IMG/VR virus record: IMGVR_UViG_3300028925_006118
Location: 1 to 23,571 of that record
Reading direction: 5' to 3' (one strand)
Origin: a virus
DNA length: 23,571 nt
The position numbers were made by a program, and so were the translations under genes. The notes beneath the pieces are model-generated. The model worked only from the letters and a program-made list of their open reading frames with translations, was not told where the DNA came from and did no database searches. Shown here piece after piece: positions 8,167 to 23,571 of the stretch (position 1 is its first letter; every line of letters starts with the position of its first letter).

Positions 8167-8185
8167 AACATGAGCAATGCTAACA

Positions 8186-8201
8186 CGGAATATTTATTCC
8201 G
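8186..8201 (+). promoter_or_regulatory. Hairpin in the porin mRNA leader
   Basis: The leader contains a perfect inverted repeat CGGAATA/TATTCCG around two bases, followed by a C6 run (8203-8208), unusual in this AT-rich sequence. The AAGGA ribosome site lies just downstream at 8215-8219. It may stabilise the mRNA 5' end. A regulatory role is only inferred. Confidence 0.35.
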
Positions 8202-8226
8202 ACCCCCCAACCTTAAGGAAAATAAA

Positions 8227-9189
8227 ATGAAAAAACTAGCAATCAGTGCAGTGGCCACTGCACTATTAAGTACTTCTGCATTAGCAGAAGTATCAATCTC
8301 TGGAACTACAGAGTTCTACTACAAGAGTGTCGACTCAGAAATTACTGCTAACAACGGTACTTCAATGGGAAACTCCGACAACGAAATTAAATTTACTTTT
8401 TCAAATAAAACAGACACAGGCTTAGAATATGGATATGTTGCTGAATTAACAACAGTCGGTGATTCAACTACAACTGTTGACGAATCATCTTTATATATCT
8501 CAGGCAGTATGGGTAAAATCATACTAGGTGGAAATGACGCAGTAACTGATAACTTTGGTATTGGTGAAGCAGACATAATGTCTGAAGAAGTAGGCGGTAC
8601 ATACACTAGTGCTACTATACAAACAAATGCAGGCGAAAAGACATATGGTGCAGATTTAACTAAAGCATCTTATATTTCTCCAGTAGTTGGTGGTTTTCAA
8701 GCAGGTGTAAGTTATATGGATTCAGGTGCTGCAGGTACAACTGATTCAACATCATTTGGTGCAAGTTATACAATTGATGCATTAAAAGTAGCATATACTA
8801 ATGGAATGCAAGAAGTTGCTAGTGCAATCGACAACGAGTCACAGAACATTGGTGCTAAATTGTCATTAGGTAAAACTACATTAATTGCGGCTATGAGTAA
8901 AGTCGAAGGTGCTGATGAAGATATTGATACAATAGGTGCAGGAGTAAGTTATAAACTTACTGCTACAACAACTATTGCAGTATCAACAATGGAATCAGAA
9001 GATGCATTAGATGTTTCTGGAACTGAAAAAGAAAACCTAAAGCAACACATGCTAGAAGTTAAAAGAAATATTGCTCCAGGATTAAACTTATTTGTAAACT
9101 ATACAGACTACGAATATAAGAACGGTGGCGAAGCATCAACAGACGATGATGGTTCAGTAATACAGATGAAAGTGGCTGCTTCATTCTAA
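8227..9189 (+). CDS. Outer-membrane porin
   Basis: ATG 8227, preceded by AAGGA, gives 320 residues and a classic Sec signal peptide MKKLAISAVATALLSTSALA cleaved before EVSISG. An upstream in-frame ATG at 8170 would bury the signal. The mature part is a series of alternating beta strands separated by acidic, Gly/Ser/Asp-rich turns. Examples are TGLEYGYVAEL, SLYISGSMGKIILGG, GFQAGVSYMD, FGASYTI, NIGAKLSLGKTTLIAAMSK and NLFVNYTDYEYKNGG. It ends MKVAASF, with the C-terminal Phe that BAM recognises. The size and Y-G/G-x-I-x-L-G pattern fit general porins of the Gram-negative porin family, which form trimeric 16-strand channels for small solutes. It would act in the host outer membrane. The gene is monocistronic between phage genes, so it is phage-borne. 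Substrate selectivity cannot be read. Confidence 0.8.
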   Translation: MKKLAISAVATALLSTSALAEVSISGTTEFYYKSVDSEITANNGTSMGNSDNEIKFTFSNKTDTGLEYGYVAELTTVGDSTTTVDESSLYISGSMGKIILGGNDAVTDNFGIGEADIMSEEVGGTYTSATIQTNAGEKTYGADLTKASYISPVVGGFQAGVSYMDSGAAGTTDSTSFGASYTIDALKVAYTNGMQEVASAIDNESQNIGAKLSLGKTTLIAAMSKVEGADEDIDTIGAGVSYKLTATTTIAVSTMESEDALDVSGTEKENLKQHMLEVKRNIAPGLNLFVNYTDYEYKNGGEASTDDDGSVIQMKVAASF

Positions 9190-13399: not shown

Positions 13400-14245
13400 T
13401 TAAAGTTTCCCTCTAATACGTTTCCACTGCTCTTGAATCTCATCTGCAAACCATTCTGTATAACTCATACGTCTTAACCAATTACTTCTTCCTGGTTTTG
13501 CTAATGGTTCTAACATTTCACTGCCGACATCATATGCTAAACTATGTTCACTAACAACTGCTGGTACTCCGGCTATTATGCTATTAATGCCAGCATTGCT
13601 ACTGTGGCTAACAGTAAAGTAAGTATGCTCTAGCATTGTCTCTAAGTCAAAACTATCATAAGTTTGTTGTAATTTTTTAGGAACATTCCAAGTACAATTT
13701 TGAGACTGAAACCATTCTTTATCGTATGTAAAACTACTAAAACGAGGATGGTTACGAAGTATAATGGGTTTATCAGTAATAGTACGAATCTTTTCAACTG
13801 TTTGTTTATAGTACTCTCCCATAGTAGGCATGTTACTCCATTGTTGACTATCTCCATGTTGTCCACAAACTAAAACATACTCACCAGTATGCTTCCATGG
13901 TTGTTTAATTAATCCTAACTTAACAAGTCTGTCACTACCTTCATATGTATCTACTGCAAAGTCAGCATCTCTATTGACTCCATTAATTCCTAGTTTCCAA
14001 GTTTTATTTCGAATTAGTCCACCTACCTCGATAACAATCACAGGCTTTCCTTGCTTACGATAATGATCCCAAACTTTCTTATTCTCAGACATTTTACCAG
14101 ACCATAACACACTCCATATCAGAGCAACATCTGCATCCATATTGTCTTCTACAAGTGTATCTGTTGACTTAATTGCTTCTATTAGTTGAGGATAAACCAT
14201 GTTTGCATTAATGGGTAAGTTTTGTGGGTAGTGTGAAACTTGCAT
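13400..14245 (-). CDS. Capsule-type glycosyltransferase (KpsS/KpsC-like fold)
   Basis: This is the only minus-strand gene of the window, 281 residues. The C-terminal half shows a GT-B pattern of capsule polysaccharide synthesis proteins: LVCGQHGDSQQW (about 125-136), IILRNHPRF (161-169) with the His-Pro motif, and SHSSNAGINSIIAGVPAV (213-230), the nucleotide-sugar-binding signature, followed by SEHS. The N-terminal half is a second Rossmann-like half with VIVIEVGG. It would transfer sugar from a nucleotide sugar in the cytoplasm. Two other genes (17412 and 18178) share the C-terminal signature. It is preceded by AAGG and a minus-strand late-type octamer. Acceptor and sugar are unknown. Confidence 0.65.
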   Translation of the reverse strand: MQVSHYPQNLPINANMVYPQLIEAIKSTDTLVEDNMDADVALIWSVLWSGKMSENKKVWDHYRKQGKPVIVIEVGGLIRNKTWKLGINGVNRDADFAVDTYEGSDRLVKLGLIKQPWKHTGEYVLVCGQHGDSQQWSNMPTMGEYYKQTVEKIRTITDKPIILRNHPRFSSFTYDKEWFQSQNCTWNVPKKLQQTYDSFDLETMLEHTYFTVSHSSNAGINSIIAGVPAVVSEHSLAYDVGSEMLEPLAKPGRSNWLRRMSYTEWFADEIQEQWKRIRGKL

Positions 14246-14253
14246 GATAAATA
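14246..14253 (+). promoter_or_regulatory. Late-type promoter of the glycan operon, GATAAATA
   Basis: A one-mismatch match to TATAAATA lies in the 46-base divergent gap. The expected start near 14259 leaves about 33 bases with AAGGA before ATG 14292. Confidence 0.45.
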
Positions 14254-14261
14254 CCTTTATA

Positions 14262-14273
14262 ATATACGTATAT
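14262..14273. promoter_or_regulatory. 12-bp palindrome in the divergent intergenic gap
   Basis: ATATACGTATAT is a perfect palindrome centred between the two divergent genes and between two opposed late-type octamers. It could be an operator or simply AT-rich sequence. It shares TATACG with the inverted repeat at the gp32 promoter. Confidence 0.3.
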
Positions 14274-14280
14274 ATTTAGT
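14273..14280 (-). promoter_or_regulatory. Late-type promoter of the minus-strand glycosyltransferase, ACTAAATA
   Basis: Read on the minus strand, 14280 to 14273 is ACTAAATA, identical to the octamers at 2816 and 9277. The expected start near 14267 is 22 bases before the ATG at 14245. Confidence 0.45.
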
Positions 14281-14291
14281 TAAGGAATTAC

Positions 14292-15179
14292 ATGAAATTA
14301 TCAGTTTTTAGTACTTGGCATCCAGCAGGATACGATAAGTATGGCAGAAATTTTATACAAGGATATATTAATTGTTGGCCAAAAGAGGTACCTCTAACAA
14401 TATATGCTGAAGATCATATACCAGAAGTTCCTAACTATATAAACATTTTAGATCAAAGAACAACACTGCAAGACTTAAAAGCATGGCAAGAGAGACATAA
14501 AGACAATCCACATGCACACGGTCATAACAAAGATATGACAAAGAAAAGTTTTCTCTGGGATGCCAGTAGATTTGCAAATAAAACATTTGCACTTTGGCAT
14601 TTCGCAAAACACACAGACTCAGATGTAATGATCTGGTGTGATGCTGATGTCAGAACGCACACTACAATGAGTCTACAATTTTTACAAGACATATCGCCTA
14701 ACGAAGACCAACTAGTAACATACTTAGGTCGTAAGACCTGGCCTGAATGTGGATGGATGATGTTTAATAGAAAGCATCCAAAGTTTCAAGAGTTTATAGA
14801 TCTATGGCGTTGGATATACGAAAGTGATGACATATTTAAACATGCAGAGTATCATGATAGTTTTATATTTGGAGAATTAGTACAAGAATATAAACGCAAC
14901 GGAACATTGTTTAATAACCTAGGAAGTGATAGTTCTGGAGGACATATTTTTATTAATAGTGTACTAGGAAGATATATGGATCATTTAAAAGGATTCAGAA
15001 AAGAAGTAGGAAAAAGTTTAGCAAGAGACTTAGTTGGTAGTTTCCAACATAAGGATAACGATTGGTGGCAAGATTTACGGCATGTAACAAAAGCAGAAGT
15101 TAAAGAAGAGAAACGAAAGAACCCACACGAGTATGATGCAACACAACAACATACTAGTAAAGGTATAAAAAATGAATAA
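14292..15179 (+). CDS. GT-A type glycosyltransferase
   Basis: This 295-residue protein has a metal-binding DxD motif in VMIWCDADV (DAD at 117-119), preceded by a Rossmann-like N-terminus MKLSVFSTWHPAGYDKYGRN. GWMMFNRKHPKFQEF and an aromatic stretch WRWIYESDD follow. This is the pattern of cytoplasmic nucleotide-sugar-dependent transferases. The C-terminal about 40 residues are Lys/Glu-rich. It begins the seven-gene operon and overlaps the next gene by eight bases. AAGGA precedes the start. Family and sugar cannot be named more closely. Confidence 0.65.
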   Translation: MKLSVFSTWHPAGYDKYGRNFIQGYINCWPKEVPLTIYAEDHIPEVPNYINILDQRTTLQDLKAWQERHKDNPHAHGHNKDMTKKSFLWDASRFANKTFALWHFAKHTDSDVMIWCDADVRTHTTMSLQFLQDISPNEDQLVTYLGRKTWPECGWMMFNRKHPKFQEFIDLWRWIYESDDIFKHAEYHDSFIFGELVQEYKRNGTLFNNLGSDSSGGHIFINSVLGRYMDHLKGFRKEVGKSLARDLVGSFQHKDNDWWQDLRHVTKAEVKEEKRKNPHEYDATQQHTSKGIKNE

Positions 15180-15840
15180 GATATTCCCTCTTATATTTAA
15201 AAAAGACCTTTACTTAGATTACGAAGATCATTTATTTGCACACAACAAAATTGACAGAGTCCCTAATCAATTAAATAAACATTATCGTTATGTAAAACAG
15301 TATTGGGAATTAACTAAAAAAAGAACTGCTATTGATATTGGTTGTAGATTTGGCGAGTATACACATTACCTAGTAAAACACTTTGATAATGTGAAATGTT
15401 TTGAACCTAGAGAAAATTGTTTAAACTATCAGTTTAACCGAAACGTACCAAAAGATAAAGTTACTGTTTATCCATATGCACTTGGAGAGAATAACGGAAC
15501 AGTAGAGATGTATGGTGGAGCAATATTTAACCAAACAATTAGAGACACAATAAAAGAGAAAAACATAAAAAGATGTCCAGTCTATACATTAGATACTTTT
15601 CAATTTGATGATGTTGATCTTATTAAAATTGATGTAGAAGGATACGAAACTAAAGTAATACACGGTTCATTGGCAACAATAGAGAAGCACAGACCATTAA
15701 TGATAATAGAACAAAACGGTAGTGATCTATTATGGGGGTGGGAAAATAAAGAAAACGAAACTGTAGAATTACTACAAAGTTTAGACTACGTTATAGTTGA
15801 TAAAATTAAAAATGATTATGTTTTAAGGAGTAATAAATGA
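15172..15840 (+). CDS. FkbM-family SAM-dependent methyltransferase
   Basis: Its 222 residues have a class I methyltransferase fold with AIDIGCRFGEYTHYL (53-67) as SAM motif I, CFEPRENC (76-83) with the acidic ribose-binding Glu, and the FkbM signature VDLIKIDVEGYE (148-159). FkbM proteins mostly O-methylate sugars. In this setting methylation of a glycan made by the neighbouring transferases is likely. It overlaps the gene before by eight bases and the gene after by four (ATGA), with AAAGG upstream of the start. No truncation is seen. Confidence 0.8.
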   Translation: MNKIFPLIFKKDLYLDYEDHLFAHNKIDRVPNQLNKHYRYVKQYWELTKKRTAIDIGCRFGEYTHYLVKHFDNVKCFEPRENCLNYQFNRNVPKDKVTVYPYALGENNGTVEMYGGAIFNQTIRDTIKEKNIKRCPVYTLDTFQFDDVDLIKIDVEGYETKVIHGSLATIEKHRPLMIIEQNGSDLLWGWENKENETVELLQSLDYVIVDKIKNDYVLRSNK

Positions 15841-16610
15841 ATAATCTAAGTGTACTACAAAATGTGAAGCAAGTATTTAATACCCCGTATCCACATGTAT
15901 GTGTTGAAGATGCTTTGCCAGAACACATATATAAAGAATTAGAAGAAACATTTCCAGAGGCACTTGTTACTAACACAATACCACATGATGGTGGGATAAC
16001 ATACAGATACAAATGTAAAGAAGCAAAAGAAGGAGTGCTACCTCCTATATGGCAAGACTTTTTTGCTTATCATACAAGTCCAGAGTACTTCAAGTCATGT
16101 ATCAGTTTATTTGGTAATAGCATAGAAACTTATTATACTCAGTATAGAGACTTACTTAATGCAGATAATGTTACTGTTAGAGACATTGATAATAGTGGAT
16201 CGTATGTTACTGATTGTCAGTTTGTAATACACGAGCCAGTTGCTGAAACAGGAACTAGCCGTACGCCACATCTGGATAACCCTGTGGAAATTTATGCAGG
16301 ATTGTTATATATGAGAAAGATAACCGACACTAGTGCAGGAGGCAACTTTACGATACACGAGCAAACTGGAACTATTCAAGAAGTAAACAAAACACTTGGT
16401 AGACAGGTTGCTAACAATCTACATAAGCCGATCAAAGAAGTGCCGTACAAAGCAAATAGTTTTTGTATGTTTCTAAATGTAATGGGAAGTATACATAGTG
16501 TAACTCCAAGAATAAATCCAATAGAACATAGACGTAGTATTAACATTATCGGAGAGTATAACCGTAACGGCAAGATGTGGAAAGTACAGGAAATTAAGAA
16601 TGGCTTTTAA
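15837..16610 (+). CDS. 2OG-Fe(II) oxygenase, prolyl-4-hydroxylase-like
   Basis: The 257-residue protein holds the 2-His-1-Asp iron triad in a double-stranded beta-helix: HLD (H145, D147) and the distal His in GSIHSVTPR (H220), with Arg225 or R232/R233 for 2-oxoglutarate. A typical GGNFTIHE loop (about 168-175) follows the first motif. Members hydroxylate proteins, sugars or small molecules using 2-oxoglutarate and O2. Such enzymes are common in marine phages beside glycan genes, with targets mostly unknown. It overlaps the FkbM gene by four bases and the next methyltransferase by eleven, and has AAGGAG. Confidence 0.75.
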   Translation: MNNLSVLQNVKQVFNTPYPHVCVEDALPEHIYKELEETFPEALVTNTIPHDGGITYRYKCKEAKEGVLPPIWQDFFAYHTSPEYFKSCISLFGNSIETYYTQYRDLLNADNVTVRDIDNSGSYVTDCQFVIHEPVAETGTSRTPHLDNPVEIYAGLLYMRKITDTSAGGNFTIHEQTGTIQEVNKTLGRQVANNLHKPIKEVPYKANSFCMFLNVMGSIHSVTPRINPIEHRRSINIIGEYNRNGKMWKVQEIKNGF

Positions 16611-17412
16611 CAATATAATGCAACTAGCAACTGCAAAACTAGTTAAAGATTTTAAACCAAATGCAACAGTAGTCGAATGGGGTAATCAAAGATTTAGATA
16701 CAACGAGGTCTGGACAGAAAAACTAAAAGAAGTTAGTGGTAAACAAATTCGTAAGCCTGTTAAATATGTTTGGGAATACTTTGAAGATTTAGGATTTAGT
16801 GACTACCTTGCTATTGACATTAATACAGAACTTCGTGCTATTGCAATGGACTTAAACTTTATCTTAAAAGACAAATACGACTACACAACTGAATTTGATT
16901 ATGTAACAAATAACGGCACAGGTGAGCACATATTTGATCAACGTACAGTATTTGAGAACATGCATAATTTGTGTAAACCAGGCGGTATAATGATTAATGT
17001 ATTGCCTTTTGCTCCTTGGTTTAACCATTGTTTTTATAGTTACCATCCAGGTTTGTTCCGTGACATAGCCGCAGCAAATGGATATAAATGGAAGTTTATG
17101 TGGCTTGCACAAAACACAGGAAAGTATATTGAAGCACCGACAGATATTAATAGTTGGGGATTCTTTGAACAGAAAAAAGCAAGGACTCCAATAAGTGATT
17201 TAGAAAAAGCATACGACGAACTACACCAAAGAGATAGTGCTAAACCTCAAAACATTAGTATTGTTACTGCTTATCAAAAAGTCTTAGACAAGCCATTTCA
17301 GATACCTTTCCAAGGACGTTATGTAAACGATATCGTAGAGAACTTAAAATCAGAATATAGTGAAGATAATATAGATGTTAGACAAACAAACCATAAGAGT
17401 GCAACCTACTAA
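16600..17412 (+). CDS. Class I SAM-dependent methyltransferase
   Basis: The 270-residue protein has a glycine-poor motif I (VVEWGNQRF, about 24-32), DYLAIDINTELRAIAMDL at the adenine-ribose site and FDYVTNNGTGEHIFDQ. The post-motif block FENMHNLCKPGGIMINVLPF is typical of methyltransferase_11/23-like enzymes. The C-terminal half (about 170-270) is helical and not recognised. It belongs to the overlapping glycan operon (starts 11 bases before the previous stop, one-base TAATG overlap with the next). A role in methylating a sugar or lipid-linked glycan is inferred. Motif I departs from the usual E/DxGxGxG. Confidence 0.65.
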   Translation: MAFNNIMQLATAKLVKDFKPNATVVEWGNQRFRYNEVWTEKLKEVSGKQIRKPVKYVWEYFEDLGFSDYLAIDINTELRAIAMDLNFILKDKYDYTTEFDYVTNNGTGEHIFDQRTVFENMHNLCKPGGIMINVLPFAPWFNHCFYSYHPGLFRDIAAANGYKWKFMWLAQNTGKYIEAPTDINSWGFFEQKKARTPISDLEKAYDELHQRDSAKPQNISIVTAYQKVLDKPFQIPFQGRYVNDIVENLKSEYSEDNIDVRQTNHKSATY

Positions 17413-18185
17413 TGACATTACATTATAATATATCTAATCCTAACAGTAAATGTAATTGGGTTATGGACAGTCTTAAGAAAGGTTGGTCGGATGATAGTAA
17501 TCATTATTGGGGGTTCATACAAGACAACGATAGACTTATTAGGAACCATCAGGATCAGTTTGAAGATTTTTACTTCTGGGATATGCCTTACTATGGAAGG
17601 TATGGAGTTGTGGATGACCACTATTGGAGAGTTAGTAAAAATGGGATACACCCTACCAAGGTAACCAGTAGACCAACTGACAGATTTGAAAAATGGAACA
17701 TAGATATTAAAGACTGGGATAAACAAGGAGAAGAGATACTTGTTTGTCCTAGTAGTAACACAATGTCATATTGGTGTACTAGTCAACACGAAAGAGTATG
17801 GACACAACAAACAATAGCAGAATTATCAAAGCATACTGATAGACCTATTAGAGTTAGATCAAAACCAAGAACAGAAAAGACTAGCGGACCAGTAGCACAA
17901 AAGGAACTAGGGCTACCTAGTGTGCAAGAAGATATACAAAATGCTTTTGCAGTTGTAACTAGTGTAAGTCTAGTAGCAGTAGAAGCAATAACAAACGGAA
18001 TACCAGTATTTTGTCATCCTCTTAGTTTTGCTAGTCCTATTAGTAGTGTAGACATAAGTAAAATTGAAAATCCAATATACAGTGATAAACGATTGGAATG
18101 GCTAAGTCATTTAGCATATTGTCAATTCACAGAAAAAGAAACGTCTAACGGAATTGCATATGAGTCATGGAGAACTTATGTCTAA
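17412..18185 (+). CDS. Capsule-type glycosyltransferase, tandem copy 1
   Basis: This 257-residue protein is related to the next gene. Both have a W-R/L-R/L-V/L-SKN segment, a TSRPTDRFEKW/KTPKTGRWEEK block, an ILVCPSS/ILVIPPT strand-loop and an R-x-K-P-R/N turn (IRVRSKPR, about 146-153). Both also carry the nucleotide-binding patch (VVTSVSLVAVEAITNGIPVFCHP, about 181-203) of capsule polysaccharide transferases. It starts in a TAATG overlap. It is slightly shorter at the N-terminus than its neighbour. Substrate unknown. The CHP sequence replaces the usual Ser/Glu after GIP. Confidence 0.6.
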   Translation: MTLHYNISNPNSKCNWVMDSLKKGWSDDSNHYWGFIQDNDRLIRNHQDQFEDFYFWDMPYYGRYGVVDDHYWRVSKNGIHPTKVTSRPTDRFEKWNIDIKDWDKQGEEILVCPSSNTMSYWCTSQHERVWTQQTIAELSKHTDRPIRVRSKPRTEKTSGPVAQKELGLPSVQEDIQNAFAVVTSVSLVAVEAITNGIPVFCHPLSFASPISSVDISKIENPIYSDKRLEWLSHLAYCQFTEKETSNGIAYESWRTYV

Positions 18186-19101
18186 AAATTTAGTTATATA
18201 TACTACTGCAAGAGCAAGAACATCAAAGTTAATGTTCTTATTTGCAGATGGAGTCGCTGAACAAACACCCAACGAATGGGATATCAAAATAATATCTATT
18301 GATAGATTTTTAGAAAGTTCAGCACATCCTAAAGATACAAATGCAATCGCATGTTTTGGAATACTTAGAGGTACCGGCATGGCATTACAGGAAGCGGCTA
18401 GACTAGGTATAGACAGATACTTTATAGATCATGCTTACTTTAGTAGAGGGTATGGAGGAGAAGGATGGCTACGTCTTAGTAAGAACAGACATACATTAAA
18501 TTATATTAAGACACCTAAAACTGGCAGGTGGGAAGAAAAGTTTGCCAGAGAGTATGAACATCAAATTAAACCTTGGAAACATAAAGCAAGTAGAGGAGAT
18601 AAAATATTAGTAATACCTCCGACACATGCGATAAAATGGTACTTTGGGTGTCATAATTGGGAAAAAGAGATACTTGTAAAATTAAAAAAATACTTGCCAG
18701 AATATCTGCATTGTAAGATTAAAATAAGACCAAAGCCAAACGAGCCTATTGTAGATAAACTAGGCAACTTACTTCGTTTTGACAAGACGGTTCCTGAAGA
18801 TGCAGTGTCGTTAGAACAAGACTTGACAGAAGCCAATATAGTAATAGCATACAATAGCAACGTAACATTAGAGGCAACTAGATTAGGCATACCAGTAATT
18901 ACTACTCGACATAATAGTTGCTATCCGATAAGTTTTAAAATAGAAGACTTAATGATTAATTTTCATAATCCAAAGTTTGATGTAGAGCCTGACAGGTTAA
19001 CTTTGTTTAGATGGCTGGCTAATAATCAATTTACAAAACAAGAATTTAGAACAGGATATGCTTGGAAAATAGTTAATCAGTTTCAAGGAGATGCAACATG
19101 A
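18178..19101 (+). CDS. Capsule-type glycosyltransferase, tandem copy 2
   Basis: ATG 18178, eight bases inside the previous gene with GGAG upstream, was preferred to an upstream in-frame TTG at 18154. It encodes 307 residues. Motifs are ILVIPPTHAIKWYFG (about 143-157), IKIRPKPNEP (181-190) and IVIAYNSNVTLEATRLGIPVIT (221-242), then WLANNQFTKQEFRTG at the end. The layout equals copy 1 and more loosely the minus-strand gene at 13400-14245. The C-terminal HNSCYPISF differs from the copy-1 CHPLSFASPI, so acceptor or donor use may have diverged. It overlaps the next gene by four bases (ATGA). Confidence 0.6.
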   Translation: MSKNLVIYTTARARTSKLMFLFADGVAEQTPNEWDIKIISIDRFLESSAHPKDTNAIACFGILRGTGMALQEAARLGIDRYFIDHAYFSRGYGGEGWLRLSKNRHTLNYIKTPKTGRWEEKFAREYEHQIKPWKHKASRGDKILVIPPTHAIKWYFGCHNWEKEILVKLKKYLPEYLHCKIKIRPKPNEPIVDKLGNLLRFDKTVPEDAVSLEQDLTEANIVIAYNSNVTLEATRLGIPVITTRHNSCYPISFKIEDLMINFHNPKFDVEPDRLTLFRWLANNQFTKQEFRTGYAWKIVNQFQGDAT

Positions 19102-19781
19102 ATAATATCTACGTTGGGTGGGATAGCAGAGAAGACATTGCGTATCAAGTATGTGAGCATAGCATTCTAAGAAGAACATATCGTGGCTTTACTAATGTAA
19201 CCCCTCTAAAGCAAAACGAACTCAGAGACCGTAAGTTATACTGGCGTGAGACAGATAAACTTTCTAGTACAGAATTTACATTTACAAGATTCTTGGTTCC
19301 TCATTTAAATGAATACAAAGGATGGGCTGTATTCTGTGATTGCGATATGGTTTGGTTAACTGATGCTAGTGATCTATTTTTAAACAAGGATCCTAGTAAA
19401 GCAGTGTATGTTGTTAAACACGATTATACTCCGCCTGAGGGCACTAAGATGGATGGACAACTACAGTTACCTTATCCTCGTAAAAATTGGAGTAGTTTTA
19501 TATTATGGAATTGTGAACATCCTAAGAACAAACTACTAGACTTAGAAACAGTTAACAATCAAGCAGGGCAATGGTTACATAGATTTAGTTGGTTAGATGA
19601 TGAAGACATAGGCGAACTAAATCTAGAATGGAATTGGTTAGTAGGACATTATACTGCACCAGCAGACGGCGAACCTAAAGTATTACATTATACAGAAGGA
19701 GGCCCTTGGTTTGAGAATATGCGTGATTGTGAATATGATCATATATGGAAGAAGGAAGTTATTAACTTATATAGTTCTTAA
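19098..19781 (+). CDS. GT8-like glycosyltransferase
   Basis: This 227-residue protein begins with a nucleotide-binding strand (MNNIYVGWDSREDIAYQVCEHS), has a metal-binding FCDCDMVW motif (DCD 81-83) and a C-terminal LHYTEGGPWF motif (about 196-205). The last is a variant of the HxxGxxKPW block of GT8 enzymes. It acts in the cytoplasm on nucleotide sugars. It is the last gene of the overlapping operon, with AAGGAG before the start. Family naming is from motif order, and the specific sugar is unknown. No terminator follows clearly before the next promoter. Confidence 0.7.
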   Translation: MNNIYVGWDSREDIAYQVCEHSILRRTYRGFTNVTPLKQNELRDRKLYWRETDKLSSTEFTFTRFLVPHLNEYKGWAVFCDCDMVWLTDASDLFLNKDPSKAVYVVKHDYTPPEGTKMDGQLQLPYPRKNWSSFILWNCEHPKNKLLDLETVNNQAGQWLHRFSWLDDEDIGELNLEWNWLVGHYTAPADGEPKVLHYTEGGPWFENMRDCEYDHIWKKEVINLYSS

Positions 19782-19798
19782 AACTAATTAATAAAAAC

Positions 19799-19827
19799 TT
19801 GATATTCTAACATTTTTATGTTACACT
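19799..19827 (+). promoter_or_regulatory. sigma70-like promoter of the purine cassette
   Basis: TTGATA (19799-19804), a 17-base spacer and TACACT (19822-19827) match the consensus at 9 of 12 positions with ideal spacing. The expected start is near 19834, leaving an 86-base leader. The -35 is weaker than that of gp32. Confidence 0.5.
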
Positions 19828-19859
19828 TATAACTAAGTACTAACTTAAAGTACTAAAAA

Positions 19860-19896
19860 AGGCAGAGTCGATCCTGCCTGTTCTTACAAGAAGAAC
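19860..19896 (+). promoter_or_regulatory. Two adjacent hairpins in the BMP gene leader
   Basis: AGGCAG (19860-19865)/CTGCCT (19874-19879) forms a 6-bp stem with an 8-base loop. Directly after it, GTTCTT (19880-19885)/AAGAAC (19891-19896) forms a second. AAAGGA and ATG 19920 follow. The pair could be a translation-control element or riboswitch-like leader, but no known riboswitch core is recognised. Confidence 0.4.
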
Positions 19897-19919
19897 TAAC
19901 ACCCTCGAAAGGATAATCG

Positions 19920-20987
19920 ATGAAACTATTAAAACTGTTGGCAGTTGCACTGTCAGTTATGTTTTTCAGTACTGCGTATGCTGAAGACAAAGTAAAAGTT
20001 GGTTTTATCTATGTTGGCCCTACTGGCGATCATGGATGGACTTATAGACACGATATAGGAAGACAAGATGTTGAGAAGCATTTTGGAGACAAAGTAGTTA
20101 CCAAGTACATTGAATCGGTAGAAGAAGGCCCCGATGCCGCAAGAGTTATGCGGGCAATGGCAAGCGAAGGTATGGATATTATATTTGCAACATCATTTGG
20201 TTATATGAATCAAATGGTAAAAGTAGCAAAAGAATTTCCAAACGTAAAGTTTGAACATGCTACAGGATACAAACAAGGACCTAACTTAGCAACATACGGA
20301 TTAAGATTATACCAAGCAAGACACGTACAAGGTGTAATTGCAGGGTTGATGACAAAGACAAATAAAATTTGTTACGTTGGTGCATTTCCAATTCCAGAAG
20401 TTATTCGTGAAATTAACACGTATTACTTAGGTGCAAAGAGTGTAAATCCAGATGTTGATATTGACATTGTTTGGGTAAACACTTGGTATGACCCAGGCAA
20501 AGAAGGACAGGCTGCAGAAGTGTTAATTGCAGACGGTTGTGATATGGTTGCTCAGCATACTGATTCACCTGCTCCATTACAAACTGCACAAAAGTTAGGT
20601 AAACTAGGTTTTGGACAAGCATCAGATCAAATGAGGTTTGCTCCTAAGGCTCAGTTAACTGCAACTATTGACAACTGGTCACCTTACTATATTGCAAGAG
20701 TACAAGCAGTATTAGATGGTACATGGAAGTCAGGAGACTACTTTGGTGGTATGATTGATGGCACCGTTGGAATGGCACCGTTTGCAAATATGCCTGCAGA
20801 CGTTGAAGCGAAGGCGGCTAAGATCAAAGACGATATTAAGAATGGCAAGTACCATGCTTTTACTGGACCTATCAAAGACAACAATGGTAAGTTACAATTA
20901 AAAGACGGTGAGATTGCAAGTGACGCACAACTAAACAGCATGATGTACTACGTTGAAGGCATCGACGCTAAAGTGCCAGGTATGTAA
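19920..20987 (+). CDS. BMP-family periplasmic substrate-binding protein (purine-type)
   Basis: Its 355 residues start with a Sec signal peptide MKLLKLLAVALSVMFFSTAYA, cleaved before EDKVKVGF. There is no lipobox Cys, so it would be soluble in the periplasm. The mature part is a BMP/Med (basic membrane protein) family binding protein. GFIYVGPTGDHGWTYRHD (28-45), FATSFGYMNQMVKVAKEFP (about 89-108), VIREINTYYLGAKSVNP and DMVAQHTDSPAPLQTAQ mark the two lobes and hinge. BMP proteins bind nucleosides or purines for ABC importers. Some alphaproteobacterial members are reported bound to adenine (recalled, not verified). Apt lies two genes downstream, which fits. AAAGGA precedes ATG. Confidence 0.8.
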   Translation: MKLLKLLAVALSVMFFSTAYAEDKVKVGFIYVGPTGDHGWTYRHDIGRQDVEKHFGDKVVTKYIESVEEGPDAARVMRAMASEGMDIIFATSFGYMNQMVKVAKEFPNVKFEHATGYKQGPNLATYGLRLYQARHVQGVIAGLMTKTNKICYVGAFPIPEVIREINTYYLGAKSVNPDVDIDIVWVNTWYDPGKEGQAAEVLIADGCDMVAQHTDSPAPLQTAQKLGKLGFGQASDQMRFAPKAQLTATIDNWSPYYIARVQAVLDGTWKSGDYFGGMIDGTVGMAPFANMPADVEAKAAKIKDDIKNGKYHAFTGPIKDNNGKLQLKDGEIASDAQLNSMMYYVEGIDAKVPGM

Positions 20988-20988
20988 T

Positions 20989-21855
20989 ATGAGTATTCCC
21001 ATAATTGATTTTAAAGACCCTCAGTTATTGGAAAAGATTCGCGAGGCCTACACAACAGTGGGCTTCGCAGTTTTTACTAATGCACTTCAACCAGAACAAC
21101 AAGAAGTCTATAATAGATGGTTTGATATTGGAAAACGATTCTTTGATTTAGACTTAGAGATAAAACACAAATATAACTACAGTGGTGTTGAACTGAATAC
21201 AGGTTACACTGGGTGGATGAAAGAAAACGTTGACCCTAACGCACCAAAAGACATGAAAGAAAGTTTCAACTACAACGATACTCGTATGAACAAAAAGTTA
21301 TGGCCCAAAGAGATTCCTGAATTTAAATCTACTGCATTAGACACTATAAAAATAGCAAATTGGTTAACACTACATATACTTAAACTTTTTGATGTTATAT
21401 TAGAATCAGGCACAACATTACATGACTGTCATATTGAAAATTATAGCACAACAAGAATCATTCACTACCCTGCTTACAAAGGCCCGATAGAGGACAGACA
21501 GAACAGAATAGGCAAGCATAGTGATTATGGAACAATAACATTACTATGGCAAATAAATGATGTGCCAGGACTTATGGTAAAAGACATACACGATATGTGG
21601 CATCATGTTCCTTACGCAAAGAACGGAGTCATTGTAAACATAGGCGATTTGTTACAACGTTGGACAAATGATTATTTTGTTAGTACTGAACATCAAGTAG
21701 TAAATACACACATAGATCAACCAAGATATAGTATGCCTCATTTTGTAGATCCTAAGCCTGGAACAATGGTATGGAACCTAAGAAATGATGCTCCTAAGTA
21801 TGATCCAATCGAAAGTTTAGAATACCTTACTTGGCGACTAGCACAGAGTTATTAA
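20989..21855 (+). CDS. Isopenicillin N synthase-family 2OG-Fe(II) oxygenase
   Basis: The start chosen is ATG 20989, one base after the BMP gene (a longer in-frame start at 20953 lies inside it). The 288-residue protein has the DIOX_N lead MSIPIIDFKDPQ and VGFAVFTNA (about 24-32). The beta-helix core has H177 and D179 (KHSDYGTITLLWQ), distal H235 (STEHQVV) and the RxS motif R246-Y-S248 for 2-oxoglutarate. The catalytic set is complete. Substrate is not known. The position between a purine-type binding protein and Apt suggests a purine or nucleoside substrate, which is inference. It is unrelated in layout to the oxygenase at 15837. It overlaps apt by one base. Confidence 0.75.
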   Translation: MSIPIIDFKDPQLLEKIREAYTTVGFAVFTNALQPEQQEVYNRWFDIGKRFFDLDLEIKHKYNYSGVELNTGYTGWMKENVDPNAPKDMKESFNYNDTRMNKKLWPKEIPEFKSTALDTIKIANWLTLHILKLFDVILESGTTLHDCHIENYSTTRIIHYPAYKGPIEDRQNRIGKHSDYGTITLLWQINDVPGLMVKDIHDMWHHVPYAKNGVIVNIGDLLQRWTNDYFVSTEHQVVNTHIDQPRYSMPHFVDPKPGTMVWNLRNDAPKYDPIESLEYLTWRLAQSY

Positions 21856-22370
21856 TGATAAAAGAATATATTAGAAGTTATAAAGACTTTCCGGTTAAAG
21901 GAATTGACTTTAAAGATACAAGCAGTTTATGTAATAGCAAAGGTTTTAATATTGCAAATAACTTTATGTATAGCGAACTATTAAAGTATATGCCTTGCGA
22001 TAAGATAGTAGGCATAGATGCTAGAGGGTTTATATTTGCTAGTGTACTTGCGTTTCGTACTAGACAACCACTAGTACTATGTCGTAAACAAGGAAAACTA
22101 CCTGGACCAACGGTTAGCAAAGAGTTTGATTTAGAGTACGGAACTGATAAACTTGAAATACAAAGTGACGCAATAAGTCGTGGAGATAGAATTATTATCG
22201 TAGATGACTTAATGGCAACCGGTGGAACCATGTGTGCAGTAATTGATATGATAAAAGAATTTGATGCTGAAGTAGTAGCAGTAAGTTGTGTAATTAACTT
22301 AAATACACTGGGTGGTGCAGACAAGATGCACGAACAAAAAATACCGTTCTATGCCGCCGTACAATACTGA
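21855..22370 (+). CDS. apt: Adenine phosphoribosyltransferase
   Basis: Starting at ATG 21855 (TAATG overlap; a longer frame from 21831 is less likely) gives 171 residues, the normal Apt length. The N-terminal FPVKGIDFKDTSSL (12-25) and GIDARGFIFASVLA (53-66) recognise adenine and its hood. RKQGKLPGPTVSKEFDLEYGT covers the flexible loop. IIIVDDLMATGGTM (113-126) is the PRPP-binding signature. It makes AMP and PPi from adenine and PRPP in the cytoplasm, and all diagnostic residues are present. With the upstream BMP protein it forms a probable salvage cassette. Confidence 0.92.
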   Translation: MIKEYIRSYKDFPVKGIDFKDTSSLCNSKGFNIANNFMYSELLKYMPCDKIVGIDARGFIFASVLAFRTRQPLVLCRKQGKLPGPTVSKEFDLEYGTDKLEIQSDAISRGDRIIIVDDLMATGGTMCAVIDMIKEFDAEVVAVSCVINLNTLGGADKMHEQKIPFYAAVQY

Positions 22371-22381
22371 TTGGAAAAGCA

Positions 22382-23571
22382 TTGCAGAAAATACTACTAG
22401 TACAACCAAATTTTAAAATTGGAGTAGGCAGTTTACAAGGGTATTGGTTGCCTTATAGTGTTGGTTGTTTATGGTCATACGCAAAACAATTTGATTTTGT
22501 TAATGATAACTTTGAATTAGTAGACATAATATTCCGAAGAGAAAATATAGAAACATTATTAGAACGTGTAGGGAATATAGATATATGTTTTCTTAGTTGC
22601 TATATGTGGAATTGGGAATATAATAAGACACTTGCACAAGAAATAAAAAATAAGTATCCTAGTTGTAAAGTGATAATGGGCGGGCCACAAATAACCGACA
22701 AACCTGATAATAGATTCTTCAATAGATTTAATTTTGTTGATACTGTTTGCTTAACAGAAGGTGAAGAAACTTTTGTAAAGATACTACAATCTATAGTAGA
22801 CGATGAGCCCTTAGAAAAAATTTATAAAGGCGATCGTTTGCACCATTTAGATATACCCAGTCCATATCTATCTGGAGTATTTGATCTTATCTTAAAAAAC
22901 AATCCAGGGTTTGTATTTAATGCTACACTAGAAACAAACAGAGGATGTCCTTTCCAATGTACTTTTTGTGATTGGGGAAGTTTGACTTATGCAAAAATTC
23001 GCAAGTTTCCTATAGAAAAAGTGTTTGAAGAATTAGAATGGATAGCACATAATAAGATAGATTACCTTAGTATCGCTGATGCTAACTTTGGTGTGTTCTA
23101 TGATAGAGATATGGAAATAACTGACAAACTTGTATCACTACAAACTGAGTATGGGTTTCCTAAAGTAGTAGACGCAACTTGGTATAAGAATAGTAGTGAG
23201 AAAATATTAAAAATTGTTAAAAAGTTTGCGGCGAGTGGGTTTAACAGAGGACTTACTTTAAGTGTACAGAGTATGGACGAATCAGTACTTACAGAAATTA
23301 AACGTACGAATATGGAAATGAGTAGTTTAAAAGATATATTTGCTAAATGCAATGCTGAAGGAATACAGAGTTATACTGAACTTATACTTGGATTACCACA
23401 AGAAACATACGACAGTTGGTGTAATGGGTTATGCGAAGTAATAGGTGCAGGTCAACACGGAGCAATAGAAAGTTGGCTTACACAACTATTAGAGAACGCA
23501 GAACTTAATACTGATTATCAAAGAGAACTACACGGACTGCAAACTGTTATTGCAAGTGACTATGTAAGTGG
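22382..23571 (+). CDS. Radical SAM protein with B12-binding-like N-terminus, partial
   Basis: The frame is open from TTG 22382 to the window end (at least 396 codons, no stop), starting 11 bases after apt. No ATG lies near the start, so TTG with GGAAAA just upstream is the probable start, giving (M)QKILLVQPNF. The first about 135 residues look like the Rossmann-type cobalamin-binding domain (VQPNFKIG, YSVGCLWSYAK, CYMWNWEYNK, VIMGGPQIT), but no DxHxxG is seen. The radical SAM core has the cluster-binding CxxxCxxC in NRGCPFQCTFCDWGS, followed by YLSIADANFGV and GLTLSVQSMDESVL and SYTELILGLPQET. Class B-type methylation or rearrangement is possible. Substrate is unknown. The C-terminus is missing. 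Confidence 0.75.
   Translation, partial: MQKILLVQPNFKIGVGSLQGYWLPYSVGCLWSYAKQFDFVNDNFELVDIIFRRENIETLLERVGNIDICFLSCYMWNWEYNKTLAQEIKNKYPSCKVIMGGPQITDKPDNRFFNRFNFVDTVCLTEGEETFVKILQSIVDDEPLEKIYKGDRLHHLDIPSPYLSGVFDLILKNNPGFVFNATLETNRGCPFQCTFCDWGSLTYAKIRKFPIEKVFEELEWIAHNKIDYLSIADANFGVFYDRDMEITDKLVSLQTEYGFPKVVDATWYKNSSEKILKIVKKFAASGFNRGLTLSVQSMDESVLTEIKRTNMEMSSLKDIFAKCNAEGIQSYTELILGLPQETYDSWCNGLCEVIGAGQHGAIESWLTQLLENAELNTDYQRELHGLQTVIASDYVS

Follow-up and report, generated by a model that had tools for sequence, protein, structure and literature searches.

A virus-encoded predicted purine-binding protein gene is linked to a 2-oxoglutarate oxygenase gene, with adenine phosphoribosyltransferase as an optional third gene

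Results

The viral DNA analysed here, a stretch of 23,571 bases that comes from a large virus of marine bacteria and makes up an IMG/VR virus record (IMGVR_UViG_3300028925_006118; hereafter the window), carries three genes that encode a predicted BMP/PnrA-type periplasmic purine-binding protein (19920..20987, plus strand; 355 amino acids; Pfam Bmp), a 2-oxoglutarate (2OG)-Fe(II) oxygenase with a thymine-7-hydroxylase (T7H)-like fold (20989..21855, plus strand) and an adenine phosphoribosyltransferase (Apt; 21855..22370, plus strand). All three open reading frames are intact and run in the same direction. Specifically, the oxygenase ATG at 20989 lies one base past the BMP stop codon, and the Apt ATG at 21855 overlaps the oxygenase stop codon (TAATG). 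The start proposed for Apt by the open reading frame finder, TTG 21831, was rejected in favor of this overlapping ATG. An initial annotation had described a set of three tightly packed genes at this location, and the spacing of the reading frames agrees with that description.

BMP and oxygenase form the core of this arrangement, to which Apt is an optional third member. Scanning 2.9 million viral contigs for BMP relatives yielded 287, and the best 80 of these were retained. Three such scans (BMP, oxygenase and Apt) were made, and the best 80 loci per scan were read; the loci partly overlap, such that the counts are not fully independent. Wherever these best 80 of the 287 BMP loci offer room, the oxygenase gene is found downstream (76/76), and in 71 loci it follows directly. 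Three loci have two intervening genes (ClpP-like and class II tRNA-synthetase-like), and two have four (an NMT1 importer set plus an arylsulfotransferase-like gene). Likewise, 62 further loci from the oxygenase scan have BMP upstream in 61 cases, as an immediate neighbor in 47, nearby in 4 and as a cut end in 10 of the 11 that lacked room. Pairwise divergences of BMP and oxygenase are correlated (r 0.34; permutation maximum 0.19), as are those of oxygenase and Apt (r 0.70; permutation maximum 0.21). The BMP-oxygenase pair resides after a lysozyme gene, after the c4 gene in a group running from lysozyme to DNA polymerase, after FolE in jumbo-like groups, and beside a radical SAM gene. This variety of contexts indicates that the two genes form a unit, either moved or retained jointly. 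The genes are therefore far from being unlinked and single in all relatives, and the same order of BMP, oxygenase and apt occurs in many related phages. As a side observation, a phage-borne transfer-messenger RNA of the alphaproteobacterial permuted type is located close upstream of BMP in three loci (L219:1512-1844; L217:3686-4005; L148:1697-2026).

The window Apt scores above the cut-off of family NF002636 (184.7 versus 125 bits) and has a complete loop (IIIVDDLMATGGT) for binding phosphoribosyl pyrophosphate (PRPP); the annotation had likewise called the gene complete. Among Apt loci with 50% identity or more and with room, the oxygenase is present in 51/66, and directly upstream of Apt in 43. 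A phosphoribosyltransferase motif occurs downstream in 19 of the 52 cassettes with 3 kb of room and upstream in 1/53. Ten viral records carry Apt only, with no oxygenase found, although some are fragments and the search had no positive control; on this basis Apt was rejected as an obligatory partner. Because Apt is optional, and is present without the other two genes in other phages, we regard BMP and oxygenase as the core. The three-gene cassette of the initial annotation thus holds for its first two genes, but not for Apt as a fixed member. Two of the phages with Apt (L214:6001-6516; L204:1666-2178) share genes of the window block at 14292-19098, and no BMP or oxygenase was seen in the stretch examined; a search of the whole L214 record likewise found no oxygenase. 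A small gene with a PRPP-like motif (VMVVDDVYTTGTS), whose match to the phosphoribosyltransferase family is weak, recurs beside oxygenase and Apt (L065:9930-10343 and relatives, cluster c46).

The window BMP matches Pfam Bmp (PF02608) with 174.9 bits, compared to a gathering cut-off of 24.1, which bears out its annotation as a BMP-type binding protein. Its N terminus (MKLLKLLAVALSVMFFSTAYA; 19920..19982, plus strand), read by eye from the translation, resembles a signal peptide of the Sec type that ends in TAYA-ED and is without a lipobox Cys. Among solved structures, 3s99 (E 1e-119) and AtzT (6pi5; E 1e-105) are the closest. The first, from Brucella, was deposited with adenine, whereas AtzT holds its base via Y45, S97, F98, E165, W194, N218 and N220 and has affinities of 110 nM for guanine and 2.5 µM for adenine (PMC6834077). 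The viral pocket residues W40, S92, F93, E160, W189, H213 and D215 do not vary among the viral sequences (68/68). The viral protein is identical to 3s99 at every one of these seven ligand contacts, and it differs from AtzT at Y45, N218 and N220.

Relatives of this BMP at E below 1e-80 are found in 80 of 385 alphaproteobacterial genomes, and the same pocket is present in seven of eight proteins examined from among the nearest of these. The closest cellular BMP genes (54-62%) adjoin genes for BMP-type permeases and an ATPase, and several of the nearest also share an operon with genes for an adenosine-deaminase family protein, the xanthine dehydrogenase component XdhB, and XdhC. Because the viral pocket is identical to that of 3s99, and because the nearest cellular homologues are surrounded by purine operons, a purine as the BMP ligand is well supported, with the cellular pocket and operon context as the strongest evidence. 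The initial annotation had linked the cassette to adenine in particular. Its purine component stands, and adenine is most likely the exact ligand, as judged from the pocket shared with an adenine-bound protein.

The oxygenase is a full open reading frame that matches Pfam DIOX_N and 2OG-FeII_Oxy. Its metal triad (H177-x-D179...H235) and its 2OG-binding residues (R246-x-S248) are invariant in the viral and the distant sequences aligned, in keeping with the annotation of an intact enzyme. An AlphaFold2 model (predicted local distance difference test score 96) has only T7H among its best PDB matches (Neurospora enzyme, E 2e-23), and T7H is likewise the best match in a sequence search (E 3e-25). 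The T7H residues that contact 2OG or the base are N87, E122, R190, Y217, F292 and N294 (PMC4787775). When these published residues were mapped through a sequence alignment, four of the six (N87, R190, Y217 and F292) proved to be retained, as N70, R156, Y180 and F252, and the full base-contact set is therefore not present.

Distant cellular relatives of the oxygenase bear on its substrate. In Thalassolituus the gene order is BMP, oxygenase, adenosine deaminase; in Herbaspirillum it is NMT1, oxygenase, permease and an amidohydrolase whose next-best family is 8-oxoguanine deaminase; and a cyanobacterial relative is accompanied by a cytosine-deaminase-like gene. Because these relatives stand between importer and deaminase genes, their placement supports a role for the oxygenase in acting on some imported nucleobase, without naming it.

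Upstream of the cassette lies a promoter-like match (TTGATA-17-TACACT; 19799..19827, plus strand) that agrees at 9 of 12 positions and has a TG before the second hexamer. The initial annotation gave the genes their own sigma70-like promoter. The match is present, but we rejected it as evidence given that such matches are not enriched (17 in the real sequence versus 13.8 +/- 3.8 in shuffles). Between this match and BMP there is a structured leader (fold z = -3.7) of a type common to related phages. It comprises a hairpin, GGCAG-AGTCGATC-CTGCC (19861..19878, plus strand), with compensatory changes at two of its five pairs among ten leaders, and a conserved tail, TAACACCCTCGAAAGGA, that includes the ribosome-binding site (19897..19913, plus strand). 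The tail followed by an open reading frame always precedes BMP in the loci examined. An extra hairpin (GTTCTT-ACAAG-AAGAAC; 19880..19896, plus strand) is inserted between the two, and a different hairpin occupies the same place in L068 and L202.

Two leader types can be distinguished. Type B, that of the window, has the form GGCAG-AGUCGAUC-CUGCC followed by UAACACCCUCGAAAGGA, and viral matches to its core that carry the tail precede BMP. Type A has the form GGGUG-AAGCAUUUUAGUUAAAGAA-CACCC and lies a short distance upstream of the ribosome-binding site. When all 2.9 million viral contigs were scanned for this pattern, 63 type-A matches were obtained, and those that bear the stem and have a readable downstream gene all precede either BMP or an NMT1-type binding protein. 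Behind type A, L292 has only the N terminus of NMT1, and L313 has a short broken frame resembling NMT1. In L052 a type-A leader precedes BMP and another precedes NMT1, and L048 combines a type-B leader ahead of BMP with a type-A leader ahead of NMT1. In the type-A stem 98.7% of cells are paired, and three double changes occur in one pair (GC to AU, CG), with none in slid controls; most pairs hardly vary. When 19 phage records were searched in full with a type-A covariance model, 15 gave a single copy and four gave none. Strong matches of the model in cells lie only at cassettes of SAR116 bacteria. Of the matches in other alphaproteobacterial genomes, two were inspected (L347, L350) and lie inside coding genes, and the rest were treated as chance. 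Many cassettes located directly behind the lysozyme or c4 gene have no leader.

In Rfam 15, no family scores above its gathering threshold for either leader, and low-threshold scans gave chance-level matches only. The two small hairpin leaders are new in that they are not described in Rfam. We hypothesize that both types are riboswitches, and a protein-bound operator is an equally possible function. Pairing of the type-A loop with sequence ahead of the ribosome-binding site, to form a pseudoknot, can be drawn by eye in L040 and L149 but not in others, and the idea was dropped.

A parallel cassette is found under the type-A leader. In L332 the leader is followed by genes for an NMT1 binding protein, an ATPase, a permease, a 2OG oxygenase (29% identical to that of the window), an arylsulfotransferase-like protein, PurA and a queuosine-precursor transporter, and a xanthine-phosphoribosyltransferase-like gene lies further along. 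NMT1 importer genes under a type-A leader with a 2OG oxygenase and an arylsulfotransferase-like gene are seen in L332:417-8823, L048:9068-12546 and L052:9123-13657. That an importer, a 2OG oxygenase and a purine anabolic enzyme recur behind one and the same type of leader lends weight to the interpretation that these genes serve nucleobase salvage. The arylsulfotransferase-like neighbor (c125) was dropped as a clue to the pathway, as its cellular relatives are distant and their surroundings uninformative.

Among 84,980 species genomes, close relatives of the pair were found only in five SAR116 genomes and one unclassified alphaproteobacterial bin, rather than in the SAR11 or rhodobacterial genomes to which the initial annotation pointed. 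BMP adjoins the oxygenase in all six. In a quick maximum-likelihood tree (long outgroup branches, no bootstrap), these cellular carriers fall at two places inside the viral diversity, and this nesting points to an apparent transfer of the pair from viruses to cells. The six cellular loci (L082-L087) have the pair at varying chromosomal sites, and the five SAR116 leaders are of type A.

The permease family that partners BMP proteins (BPD_transp_2) was not found in 11 viral contigs (the longest 328 kb; ten carry the cassette), although the contigs may be incomplete. Two SAR116 genomes have 10-12 such permeases each, and the SAR116 genomes with the pair also carry a second BMP (53%), with a full importer operon in the two that were read gene by gene. 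Since the permease is absent from the viral contigs and present in SAR116, the phage BMP most likely loads a BMP-type ATP-binding cassette (ABC) importer of the host, for which SAR116 is a plausible candidate.

The window also encodes, away from the cassette, an outer-membrane porin (Porin_4, E 9e-31; 8170..9189, plus strand) with a signal-like N terminus and a likely start at about 8227. Relatives with 68-100% identity occur in 20 viral loci, including a 328 kb BMP-oxygenase contig. The porin is present in both of the largest BMP-bearing contigs (328 and 316 kb), and in none of eighteen smaller or partial records. Because the window and both of these contigs encode it, a virus-supplied route across the outer membrane is possible in jumbo forms.

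Other genes of the window encode a T4-like terminase large subunit, UvsX, UvsY and a single-strand binding protein. The terminase is closest (about 51%) to those of jumbo phages such as PA5oct and Sinorhizobium phage Phosso. A block at 13400-19781 includes FkbM-type and other methyltransferase genes, most of its genes having no Pfam match, and a second, weak 2OG oxygenase lies within it (15837-16610). Downstream of Apt, an open frame akin to B12-binding radical SAM proteins (22370-23571) runs off the end of the window (IMG/VR records are fragments); its KedN5-like relatives stand just before BMP in L065 and L068.

Discussion

We consider it reasonably probable that these genes constitute a viral module for nucleobase capture and salvage. 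BMP would be exported to the periplasm of a Gram-negative host and bind purine bases via its adenine-type pocket, a step that is well supported by sequence comparison, and would then dock on a BMP-type ABC importer encoded by the host and not by the phage. The base so imported, or a modified derivative, may be the cytoplasmic substrate of the 2OG oxygenase, which would most likely act by hydroxylation or by oxidative N-dealkylation of a methylated purine to give a usable base. Finally, Apt where present, or another phosphoribosyltransferase, would join the base to PRPP to form a nucleotide. Here adenine would become AMP for use in phage DNA synthesis, a step that is supported as well. In many members, expression is probably tuned by the small RNA leader before the ribosome-binding site.

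Several observations weigh against this interpretation. The adenine in 3s99 was modelled by the depositors, the close relative AtzT binds guanine tightest, such that kindred pockets may differ in their preferred purine, and viral BMPs have a second-shell Glu164 that is missing from 3s99. In the oxygenase, the two polar contacts of T7H are replaced (E122 by N94 and N294 by D254), and the retained T7H residues were rejected as proof of a nucleobase substrate given that several are general to the IPNS-like family. Host assignments are indirect. Moreover, roughly half of the cassettes lack Apt.

This last finding also suits a catabolic role, in which the 2OG enzyme starts the breakdown of an imported purine to free its nitrogen and Apt is a side branch. 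Cellular gene order would fit as well, in that the nearest cellular BMPs lie in operons with xanthine dehydrogenase and deaminase genes, and deaminases stand beside distant oxygenase relatives. However, no ring-opening enzyme was recognized in the viral cassettes examined, while Apt, the small phosphoribosyltransferase-like gene and the xanthine-phosphoribosyltransferase-like gene recur downstream, and PurA in L332 is an anabolic enzyme. We therefore judge breakdown unlikely. An involvement in DNA or RNA hypermodification, in which the module imports or makes an unusual base alongside 7-deazaguanine genes, is suggested by FolE and QueD (named from sequence by eye), which flank the pair in several jumbo-phage groups, and by the queuosine-precursor transporter of L332. 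This appears quite improbable, as no such genes lie near the window cassette or in the groups ordered lysozyme-BMP-oxygenase or lysozyme-c5-c4-BMP-oxygenase-apt, and the pair thus occurs in contexts without them.

It is also conceivable that BMP and Apt chiefly buffer the level of free adenine, a compound that slows SAR11 DNA synthesis. The DNA content and growth of SAR11 strain HTCC7211 fall with adenine (PMC11698098), and Apt would use up adenine along with PRPP. Yet a binding protein that feeds an importer would raise adenine inside the cell, and the oxygenase would be left unexplained, making this alternative highly improbable. Less probable again is that the genes are unrelated passengers clustered by chance or on a common hitchhiking element. 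Mobile cargo is common in large phages and Apt also occurs alone, but the near-universal BMP-oxygenase linkage across several genomic contexts, the conserved catalytic and pocket residues, and the overlapping stop and start codons all speak against independent cargo.

The salvage module could be one component of a more elaborate system. In its fullest form, marine jumbo and T4-like phages would have a dedicated nucleobase uptake pathway composed of outer-membrane porin, periplasmic purine-binding protein, oxygenase and phosphoribosyltransferase, with importer genes under a very small purine-sensing riboswitch of a new class, and the oxygenase would be a novel enzyme converting modified purines into usable adenine. 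We offer this extended proposal only tentatively, and it is doubtful that all of its parts will hold.

The trait appears undescribed, although 287 viral contig stretches encode a BMP relative. A search of 50,697 phage records found no BMP relative above 38% identity and a single weak (25%) oxygenase relative, PHROGs has no family for BMP, and no account of a virus-borne BMP-oxygenase trait was found in the open-access texts searched. Similarly, the main text of a study of purine use by marine bacteria mentions no oxygenase, BMP or phage (PMC11698098).

Each component resembles a known system and departs from it. The viral BMP shares family and length with the purine subgroup of PnrA/BMP proteins that includes 3s99 and AtzT, and all seven contact residues with 3s99, whereas it is virus-encoded, has no permease or ATPase of its own, and belongs to a clade marked by Glu164. 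The oxygenase has T7H (5c3p; PMC4787775) as its best fold and sequence match, with the metal triad, the 2OG-binding Arg and Ser, the stacking Phe and Tyr and the equivalent of Arg190 in common, but it is only 30-31% identical and has N94 and D254 in place of E122 and N294. Apt resembles the cellular enzymes in its NF002636 match and PRPP loop, yet it falls below the cut-off of TIGR01090 (175 versus 185.85). The leaders, like small translational riboswitches and other leader RNAs, place a short hairpin directly before the ribosome-binding site of an importer gene, but they match no known Rfam class.

It is known that viruses equip nutrient-starved hosts with phosphate-binding proteins, and the PstS protein of cyanophages is thought to load the host importer. 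Like PstS and other virus-borne periplasmic binding proteins, the BMP described here would act alone on the viral side and load an importer of the host; unlike them, it would have a purine base as its ligand, and its gene is locked to that of a 2OG oxygenase. Prochlorococcus exudes purines, and SAR11 and SAR116 carry genes for their use (PMC11698098). The viral genes would follow the same logic as purine assimilation in these bacteria, namely uptake through an importer and then phosphoribosyl transfer by a purine phosphoribosyltransferase, and the viral version includes an oxygenase. A purine-binding protein carried by a virus and tied to an oxygenase would extend the phosphate precedent to nucleobases, nitrogen-rich compounds that pass between Prochlorococcus and the heterotrophs around it. 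The trait also provides an enzyme and a new leader RNA, both open to testing, and an apparent case of virus-to-bacterium transfer in SAR116.

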